NCBI GenBank assembly: GCA_029560465.1
Contig: JAKQKX010000088.1
Span: forward strand, 1-32,840
DNA length: 32,840 bases
Reading direction: 5' to 3'
Origin: Candidatus Omnitrophota bacterium
GTDB taxonomy: Bacteria; Omnitrophota; Gorgyraeia; Zapsychrales; JANLHA01
The notes under the pieces: model-generated
Databases searched by the model: none
What the model saw: the letters and a program-made list of their open reading frames with translations, nothing else
What the model was told of the DNA's origin: nothing
Position numbers and translations under genes: made by a program
Shown: in pieces, positions 30,177 through 32,840 of the stretch
How the letters are laid out: every line of letters starts with the position of its first letter
Numbering within the stretch: position 1 is the first letter of the stretch

Positions 30177-31295
30177 TTATTGTTTCGACCCGCGGCATGA
30201 CGGTTCTGTCTGCCCCGCCGGCCTCAATTCACTTAAGCCCTTTAAAGATATGCCTGGTTGACGGTCCTGTTTATCCTGCGGCGCCCCGCAGCTCAACAAA
30301 TCCTCAAGTTTAATATCCGACTGAATATCAAACCCCGCGGACCGGATCATCTGCAACGTCGCGTTGGGGGCGGCGCCCCGCACGTTTAAATACCCGGTTA
30401 AAAACAGGGAGTTCGCCGGATACAGCGCCAGGGGCTCCAACTCTTTCAAATACAATTCCCGGCCGGCCGCCACCCGGAGATCAACCGAGGGGTTCAGGAG
30501 CCTGAACAAAGCAAGCACCCTCAGGCAATATTCCGGGGTCAGATGAGCGGGAGCGTCAAGCCGTGTTCCGGCGACAGGAATAAAAAAATTAACGGGAATC
30601 GAATCCGCGCCCAGGGCGGCCAGCGTTTGCGCCACTTCAATAATATCCCGGCTGCTCTCCCCCATTCCCACAATAATCCCCGAACAAATCTGCAGCCCTA
30701 CGGACTGGGCGGTCCGGATCGTGGCCAGGCGGTCCTCATACGTGTGCGTGGAACAAATCCGCGGGTAAAAGTTCCGGGACGTATTCAAATTATGGTTAAT
30801 GCGGTCCACCCCGGCGGCTTTAAGAATTTCGGCCTGCTCTCTGTCAAGGAGGCCGGGAGAAACACAAACTTCCATAGGGTGATAACGCCGCTTCATCTCC
30901 CTGACCAACTCGGCCAGTCGCTCTATACGTTTTAAAGAAGGGGTCCGCCCGGAAAAGACCAGGCAATGGCGGAAGGCGCCCGAATCGTAAGCTTGCGCGG
31001 CTTCAGCCAAAATCTCTTCATCCGATTTTAACCCATACGACTCGATAGGAACGGACGCCTCCCGTGACTGGGCGCAATACCGGCAGTCTTCCGGGCAAGC
31101 CCCGTTCTGGACATTATCAATGATGTGAATAAGAACTTTCTTCCCATAAAAAGTGTGGCGAAGCTGATAAGCGGCGTCTAACAGCGCAAGCAGACGGATG
31201 TCGGGCGATTCCAATATGCTGAAACATTGGGCTTCCGAAAGCGGCTCTTTATTCAACCCGGCGCTGACCAGTTGACTGTAAAAAGAATCTTCCAC
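30177..31295 (-). CDS. bioB: Biotin synthase
   Basis: The 372-residue radical SAM enzyme carries 'QNGACPEDCRYCAQS' (Cys67, Cys71, Cys74 for the 4Fe-4S cluster) and all 2Fe-2S ligands: Cys111 in 'FRHCLVFSGR', Cys144 in 'EVCVSPG', Cys204 in 'QICSGIIVG' and Arg274 in 'DLRVAAGR'. It inserts sulfur into dethiobiotin. A GTG at 31295 is chosen as start because AAGGAGG stands five bases upstream; an ATG further up (31364) runs through the promoter. It is longer than E. coli BioB because of about 35 extra polar residues at the C-terminus. It is the first gene of the leftward run and lies 125 bases from the CRISPR array. Confidence 0.94.
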   Translation of the reverse strand: MEDSFYSQLVSAGLNKEPLSEAQCFSILESPDIRLLALLDAAYQLRHTFYGKKVLIHIIDNVQNGACPEDCRYCAQSREASVPIESYGLKSDEEILAEAAQAYDSGAFRHCLVFSGRTPSLKRIERLAELVREMKRRYHPMEVCVSPGLLDREQAEILKAAGVDRINHNLNTSRNFYPRICSTHTYEDRLATIRTAQSVGLQICSGIIVGMGESSRDIIEVAQTLAALGADSIPVNFFIPVAGTRLDAPAHLTPEYCLRVLALFRLLNPSVDLRVAAGRELYLKELEPLALYPANSLFLTGYLNVRGAAPNATLQMIRSAGFDIQSDIKLEDLLSCGAPQDKQDRQPGISLKGLSELRPAGQTEPSCRGSKQ

Positions 31296-31323
31296 TTCTT
31301 CCTCCTTGTCGAAACTTGGGTGT

Positions 31324-31352
31324 ATTCTAATATAAATAACTTTTGAAAGCAA
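31324..31352 (-). promoter_or_regulatory. Promoter of bioB and the run downstream (TTGCTT-17-TAGAAT)
   Basis: On the minus strand TTGCTT (31352-31347) and TAGAAT (31329-31324) are 17 bases apart, 29 bases before the GTG start. A short CCCC/GGGG hairpin (31359-31375) with a T-rich tail lies just upstream and could stop transcripts that come out of the CRISPR array. Confidence 0.5.
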
Positions 31353-31420
31353 ATGAAACCCCATAGCCTCAGGGGAAAGGAAGCGACGTAATTACCAGCG
31401 GCTAATGCCAAACGCAAGTA

Positions 31421-32840
31421 GTTTCAATCCACGCGCCCGCGAAGGGCGCGACACATTGGACTGCGGACGACTGCGAATATTCACCGTTTCAATCCACGCG
31501 CCCGCGAAGGGCGCGACATCATGTTGCTACTAATATATATTATTGACCTGCAAGTTTCAATCCACGCGCCCGCGAAGGGCGCGACTGCGCAGGAGACAAC
31601 TACTAAACACAGGATAAATGTTTCAATCCACGCGCCCGCGAAGGGCGCGACTGATGCGTTCTTAACGAATAATCGGGTTGCAATGTTTCAATCCACGCGC
31701 CCGCGAAGGGCGCGACTCAATAATAACCGATTCAGTTTCACTTTCTACTGGTTTCAATCCACGCGCCCGCGAAGGGCGCGACTGCCGTACCTTGTTACTG
31801 TTTCAGACGAATAGCCAGGTTTCAATCCACGCGCCCGCGAAGGGCGCGACGACGGAAAAACATCTTTGGTTCATTGTGGAAGTGTTTCAATCCACGCGCC
31901 CGCGAAGGGCGCGACCATTGGCGGTTGCCGAAGCCATAGAGTAATCAAGTTTCAATCCACGCGCCCGCGAAGGGCGCGACTGCTGTTCAATCACCGGCTC
32001 AACGTCTGGATTTTGTTTCAATCCACGCGCCCGCGAAGGGCGCGACATTAATCCCGGCGAGCATGATGTTCATTTTATAGTTTCAATCCACGCGCCCGCG
32101 AAGGGCGCGACCCTCGGCGAAAGTGTTGATGTTGCCAAAGTGGACAGTTTCAATCCACGCGCCCGCGAAGGGCGCGACTTCAGACGGGAAGAAGCGGCTC
32201 ATTGATCTTGTTGTTTCAATCCACGCGCCCGCGAAGGGCGCGACCCCCAATTTTTTCCCATGTGCCCGCCCCGACAAGTTTCAATCCACGCGCCCGCGAA
32301 GGGCGCGACAGGGGTGCTCGTTCGGTGAGTTGTGCTCGTTCGGGTTTCAATCCACGCGCCCGCGAAGGGCGCGACCGACGCCGGGAAGCTATGGCTAAGA
32401 TGGTATCGGTTTCAATCCACGCGCCCGCGAAGGGCGCGACGTTTTTCTCGTCGACAAATAATTATGATGTCTACCAGTTTCAATCCACGCGCCCGCGAAG
32501 GGCGCGACTTTTTTCATCACGATATCAATCCCGCCGGGGAGGGTTTCAATCCACGCGCCCGCGAAGGGCGCGACATCAATGAGCCGCTTCTTCCCGTCTG
32601 AAACTTTCTCGTTTCAATCCACGCGCCCGCGAAGGGCGCGACGTATTAGAGCATTTTTCTAATAAACAAATACAAAGTTTCAATCCACGCGCCCGCGAAG
32701 GGCGCGACCTCTGGGATGTTTTCCACGCCAAACTTTTACTCGTTTCAATCCACGCGCCCGCGAAGGGCGCGACAACTACAGAGCCCGCATAACACGCCGG
32801 TTTGAAGTTTCAATCCACGCGCCCGCGAAGGGCGCGACTC
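31421..32840 (-). CRISPR. CRISPR array, 22 identical 32-bp repeats, type I-C-like, continues past right edge
   Basis: The plus strand repeat starts GTTTCAATCCACGCGCCCGC and ends GAAGGGCGCGAC. Repeats start at 31421, 31486, 31554, 31620, 31685, 31751, 31819, 31884, 31949, 32015, 32080, 32147, 32213, 32278, 32344, 32409, 32477, 32543, 32611, 32677, 32742 and 32807; all are identical, including the first. The 21 spacers are 33-36 bases. The reverse strand ends in TGGATTGAAAC and has a 7-bp CGCGCCC/GGGCGCG stem with a five-base loop, as in type I-C repeats; its crRNAs would be transcribed leftwards. The leader and cas genes would then lie beyond the right edge. The array continues, since two bases follow the last repeat. 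Confidence 0.97.

Follow-up and report, generated by a model that had tools for sequence, protein, structure and literature searches.

The overlapping spacer pairs of the Legionella pneumophila Toronto-2005 type I-C CRISPR-Cas system are the closest precedent for the spacers described here. This system carries many spacers against the mobile element LME-1, two pairs of which overlap, and natural priming has been proposed for it (Rao et al. 2016, PMC5071653). In Legionella, acquisition mildly favors the same strand and is not enriched close to the priming site (PMC5071653). Both primed and targeted acquisition by type I-C systems are documented (PMC5071653; cited in PMC7056967). In type I-F, priming exceeds naive uptake more than 500-fold (PMC5059440), and in Pectobacterium, targeting spacers of this type direct further capture from the same element (Staals et al. 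2016, PMC5059440; Richter et al. 2014, PMC4117759).

We describe a type I-C array from an uncultured bacterium in which two spacers, S12 and S18, target overlapping stretches of a phage. As in Legionella, the system is of type I-C, many spacers are directed against a single mobile element, the PAM is of the TTC/GAA type, and the members of the overlapping pair differ in age. However, in the Legionella pairs the newer spacer is perfect and the older one has lost its PAM or seed match, whereas S12 and S18 are identical over the 28 nt they share. Also unlike the Legionella pairs, S12 and S18 share three differences from the known phage, are of confirmed opposite-strand origin, and have their target phage in the same genome bin. 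The pair is thus a new example beside those against LME-1, one in which the opposite strands are established and the site gives no indication of escape. Capture from both strands of one element is shared with the Pectobacterium type I-F system. The Pectobacterium work, in contrast, used laboratory plasmids, involved a GG PAM, and followed millions of events (PMC5059440, PMC4117759), while the present case consists of ten events in a type I-C system facing a natural phage, known from sequence alone. S12 and S18 are a naturally occurring example with which to ask whether sites already targeted are re-sampled by type I-C systems.

The type I-C array and its host

The window, which is the whole stretch of 32,840 nucleotides that was analysed, is a complete contig (C102) in a genome bin of 2.77 Mb and 103 contigs. 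The host is probably a member of the Omnitrophota, as its rpoB is 79% identical to that of 'Candidatus Omnitrophota bacterium UBA10147' and at most 60% identical over the longest alignments to other phyla; one member of the same family gives 82%. At the right end of the window lies the trailer end of a type I-C array (31421–32838, minus strand), with 22 identical repeats of 32 nt and 21 spacers of 33–36 nt. The crRNA orientation of the array is that of the minus strand (GTCGCGCCCTTCGCGGGCGCGTGGATTGAAAC), on which the repeat reads GTCGCGCC...GATTGAAAC.

The host repeat is present on only two contigs of the bin, the window and C22. The end of C22 carries cas3, cas5c, cas8c, cas7c, cas4, cas1c, and cas2, which constitute a full type I-C set, followed by a leader, one repeat, and a spacer of which 29 nt are present. 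The cas genes score above cut-off with NCBIfam models TIGR01863, TIGR01876, TIGR02589, TIGR03640, TIGR00372, and TIGR01573, as well as with models of the Cas3 helicase and HD domain. The repeat on C22 is identical to that of the window array and is oriented as the window minus strand. We infer, with near certainty, that the two contigs hold opposite ends of a single array. Their ends have the repeat alone in common; the spacers between them are missing from the bin, and 22 spacers are seen, 21 in the window and the newest on C22. The initial annotation had placed the leader, conditionally, at the right, and the cas1-cas2 genes, leader, and repeat of C22 confirm that side. With the leader beyond the right end, S18 is therefore younger than S12.

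The assembly is broken in the leader-proximal part of the array, at the right end of the window (32840) and the right end of C22 (36646). Spacer differences between cells together with active acquisition would fit a break at this place. Just upstream of cas3, C22 has a 119-amino acid ORF (L014:11430–11789, plus strand) whose start resembles the Cas3 HD domain, and which looks from its sequence like a partial duplication of the start of cas3. Spacer S14 (32310–32343) contains an internal direct repeat, with TGCTCGTTCGG occurring twice; its target was not found.

The target site of S12 and S18

S12 (34 nt; 32179–32212, minus strand) and S18 (36 nt; 32575–32610, minus strand) had been reported in the initial annotation to overlap over 28 bases as reverse complements. 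The arms, at 32179–32206 (plus strand) in S12 and 32575–32602 (minus strand) in S18, are indeed 100% complementary, and they form the only inverted repeat of at least 18 nt reported in 30500–32840. A chance origin of this match is out of the question. The non-shared ends are 8 and 6 nt in length, and the two spacers join, as had been proposed, into a stretch of 42 nt, GAGAAAGTTTCAGACGGGAAGAAGCGGCTCATTGATCTTGTT.

The initial annotation also put forward the joined sequence as a query for finding the target, and as such it was effective. We extended the 42-mer to a 48-mer with TTC on one side and GAA on the other, these PAMs having been predicted from the type I-C PAM before the host's own genome was searched. 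The 48-mer matched one place in the bin, C79:17228–17276, with 94% identity. C79 is a tailed-phage contig of 44,860 bp in the same bin as the host. It encodes a terminase large subunit, minor head proteins, a tail tape measure protein, a tail tip protein J-like protein, tail assembly proteins, a lysozyme domain, a replication protein O-like protein, a RusA-like resolvase, and a DNA methyltransferase; no terminal redundancy or circularity was found in it. The protospacer of S12 is located at C79:17232–17265 (plus strand) and that of S18 at C79:17238–17273 (minus strand), with TTC immediately 5' of each. A single locus with TTC PAMs on opposite strands, the arrangement anticipated for two separate acquisitions, is therefore what C79 provides.

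Each spacer has three mismatches to C79, at positions 20, 28, and 31 of S12, all of them PAM-distal, and at positions 12, 15, and 23 of S18. These are the same three phage bases, and S12 and S18 therefore go back to one common allele or sister lineage that differs from C79. Two of the differences are synonymous and one is a Lys/Arg exchange. The site lies within the gene of a 445-amino acid SbcC/Rad50-like ATPase (Pfam AAA_23; weak SbcC-like PHROG match), where the reading frame is F-E-K-V-S-D-G-K-R-R-L-I-D-L-V-E. No sequence with the exact 42-mer was found, and thus we infer the donor allele of S12 and S18. In IMG/VR, a degenerate pattern of the 28-nt core gave no match and the ATPase as query gave no confirmed relative. 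A distant ATPase homologue (60% amino acid identity), reached there through a neighbouring gene only, does not preserve the spacer site. Two sister-phage contigs, L017 and L144, both leave the site outside their bounds.

The PAM-proximal seeds of the two spacers, one per strand, fall outside the shared 28 nt. As a consequence, one point mutation, whether in a PAM or in these seed ends, is not enough to escape both spacers.

Spacers against one phage group and the origin of the pair

The target had been suggested to be a persistent one, and this is supported by the rest of the array, in which at least 10 of the 22 spacers seen fit one phage group (S3 weakly). Nine of the 21 window spacers match C79 (S1, S3, S9, S10, S12, S13, S16, S17, and S18), as does the newest spacer on C22, which has 0 mismatches over its 29 known nt and a TTC PAM. 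Nine spacers have 0–3 mismatches to C79, compared with a best of 10–16 per spacer on shuffled C79. When the 21 window spacers were searched against the 2.77-Mb bin, convincing matches occurred on C79 only, and none of the 21 matched among 50,697 phage records.

The window spacers matching C79 are all on the minus strand. The oldest, S1 (31453–31485), has 0 mismatches to L144 and 3 to C79, with the flank TTT in both. The match of S3 (31586–31619) to C79:44725–44758 is weak, with 7 mismatches and the flank TCT; its E in the own-genome search was 0.003. S9 (31981–32014) matches C79:3885–3918 (minus strand, PAM TTC) with 1 mismatch. S10 (32047–32079) matches C79:9184–9216 (minus strand, flank TTT) with 2 mismatches, in a gene adjoining that of the terminase, at the portal position, and S16 (32441–32476) matches the terminase large subunit gene itself (C79:9302–9337, plus strand, TTC) with 0 mismatches. 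S9, S10, and S16 each match L017 with 1 mismatch. S13 (32245–32277) has 2 mismatches to a lysozyme-domain gene (C79:21079–21111, minus strand, flank ATT), and S17 (32509–32542) has 1 mismatch, at position 1, to a PD-(D/E)XK nuclease gene that adjoins the ATPase gene (C79:18493–18526, minus strand, PAM TTC). The TTC PAM is thus found with six of the ten phage-matching spacers (S9, S12, S16, S17, S18, and the newest), the flanks of S1, S3, S10, and S13 on C79 being those given above.

L017 (3300003154_000219) and L144 (3300003154_000384) are IMG/VR contigs with the same sample number, 87–88% identical to C79 in nucleotide sequence over separate parts, and probably belong to one sister phage of C79. 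S10 is slightly nearer to L017 than to C79, S16 and the newest spacer are perfect on C79, and S1 is perfect on L144. The simplest reading of these matches is that, while the array was growing, the host would have encountered two or more lineages of a single phage group. We also considered whether older spacers had been escaped through PAM loss, TTC being present with younger spacers and absent from several older ones (P = 0.07), but do not hold to this firmly, since S1 is a perfect match to the sister phage, where its flank is likewise TTT. The array amounts to a long history of recurrent conflict with one kind of virus. It provides a firm phage–host link for an uncultured lineage and, in order of acquisition, ten spacers against the phage group, along with two sister phage lineages for comparison.

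S12 and S18 are very probably two captures, from opposite strands, of one locus in a tailed-phage group that the host repeatedly met and re-sampled. The host would encounter this group again and again, re-sampling spacers from it, and older spacers would already direct Cascade at the phages before S18 was captured. Because these older spacers already aimed Cascade at the phage, we lean towards interference-driven or primed uptake of S18 rather than naive sampling. The initial annotation had named primed adaptation to a persistent target or repeated sampling of a hotspot. Separate acquisitions from opposite strands with TTC PAMs, and the persistence of the target, are upheld; priming, as opposed to re-sampling, is plausible, and the analysis turned up no sign of a hotspot.

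Repeated naive sampling, with a phage that is often met, independent draws of TTC sites, and two sites overlapping by chance, is a possible explanation though in our estimate not the probable one. When ten TTC sites were drawn at random from C79, any overlap occurred in 6.6% of draws (15% for draws of 15) and an opposite-strand overlap in 3.1%. An opposite-strand overlap of at least 28 nt occurred in 0.7% (P = 0.007 for ten spacers, with the 28-nt threshold set after seeing the data), which argues against naive sampling. In its favor, the ten spacers are spread over about 45 kb without significant clustering apart from the pair: six pairs of sites are less than 1.5 kb apart versus 3.0 expected (P = 0.07), and P = 0.20 without S18. 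Seven of the ten protospacers on C79 are on the minus strand (P = 0.06).

For primed uptake of S18, the priming spacer need not be S12. The S17 site is 1.2 kb from the S18 site and on the same strand, and S17 was acquired just before S18, making it an equally good candidate. Indeed, given the mild same-strand preference and lack of a proximity effect in Legionella type I-C, S18, on the strand opposite to S12, is not what priming by S12 would best predict. Classical priming on escape mutants, in which a mutated S12 target primed the capture of S18 at the same site, is unlikely. The overlapping Legionella type I-C pairs have been read in this way (PMC5071653), and the PAM and seed positions 1–6 of S12 lie outside S18, so that escape there would be invisible in S18. 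However, S18 agrees perfectly with S12 over S12 positions 7–34, which were thus unmutated in the S18 donor. Furthermore, the S12 PAM and first 19 positions are intact in C79, and the younger S18 fits C79 no better than the older S12.

We consider it quite improbable that C79 is an integrated prophage and the array self-targeting. Although C79 was binned together with the host genome, it has no Phage_integrase match, and no recombinase occurs among the Pfam families or listed PHROG families of the C79 proteins scanned. The ORF lists show phage genes from end to end of the contig, and its terminase has no relative in 34 related genomes. In the related genomes searched, neither the terminase nor the ATPase has one in the host's own family or order, and a single ATPase (38%) occurs in another family of the class. 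The tetranucleotide pattern of C79 correlates with that of the host at r 0.80–0.83, as against 0.98 between two host contigs. Lacking a detectable integrase and having a tetranucleotide pattern unlike that of the host, C79 is more likely a free phage that was co-binned. Lastly, an assembly artefact, or inversion of one spacer copy inside the array, accords with the perfect inverted repeat but is scarcely credible, as the ends differ (by 8 and 6 nt) where a flipped prespacer would be expected to have the same ends, and the extensions are contiguous with the predicted TTC on each side in an independent contig, C79; with its own PAM and its own ends for each spacer, a single flipped or duplicated prespacer is therefore excluded.

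A solitary repeat in the sister phage

RNA anti-CRISPRs (Racrs) derive from solitary repeat units, and the type I-C RacrIC1 has been validated (Camara-Wilpert et al. 2023, PMC10651486). The exact 32-nt host repeat occurs in five IMG/VR contigs, in one copy each. One of these is the sister phage contig L017 (L017:2032–2063, minus strand), and the others are L132 (2770–2801), L133 (4148–4179), L134 (8239–8270), and L135 (1439–1470). In L132 and L135, the repeat is followed directly by a stretch resembling a ribosome-binding site and by a start codon. All five copies are candidate solitary repeat units or RNA anti-CRISPRs.

The L017 repeat is identical to the host repeat at 32 of 32 positions, where the threshold asks for 90% identity or more across 90% or more of a known repeat. 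It is intergenic, located between an ORF ending at 2022 and a small HTH gene starting at 2235, and solitary, the next best match to the repeat in the contig having 13 mismatches. By these sequence characteristics, those of a solitary repeat unit as in known Racrs, this exact type I-C repeat copy is a candidate RNA anti-CRISPR. Unlike the validated Racrs (PMC10651486), it is known at the level of sequence only, and C79 is without a copy. The corresponding stretch of C79 has other genes and no repeat-like sequence. No sigma-70-like promoter site was found on the minus strand near the L017 repeat, and the number of such sites is no higher than in shuffles.

It is conceivable, though doubtful, that the solitary repeat of the sister lineage acts as an RNA anti-CRISPR and that the S12 and S18 guides might anneal and weaken each other. 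The duplex of these two guide RNAs has 28 bp and −54 kcal/mol, compared with −27 kcal/mol for the next spacer pair. If so, a repeat-based anti-CRISPR would help explain both the persistence of the phage despite ten spacers and the double sampling of the same 42 bp, and annealing guides would make opposite-strand overlaps costly. Known Racrs lower priming as well as interference, and for this reason an anti-CRISPR sits awkwardly with the heavy sampling of the phage. The candidate repeat mimic in L017, exact to the repeat of the very host that targets L017, makes a directly testable arms-race pair.

An identical type I-C repeat is also found in an array of a genome from the same class but another family (G166; L138/L140/L142). 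Its spacers are unrelated and have no match to C79 or L017, and the identity of the repeat suggests, from sequence, either transfer or strong conservation. C79 and L017 differ at a variable spot flanked by an HTH gene and by the next block that the two share (about 11550–13330 in C79 and about 1560–2230 in L017). The spot contains proteins of 181 and 233 amino acids in C79, and a 143-amino acid protein together with the solitary repeat in L017, and may hold counter-defence genes. C79 also encodes a 240-amino acid protein (L013:891–1613, minus strand) with an N-terminal HTH_3 domain (amino acids 8–66) and a phage lysozyme domain (amino acids 100–231), an unusual combination in which a regulator-like domain accompanies a lysis enzyme.
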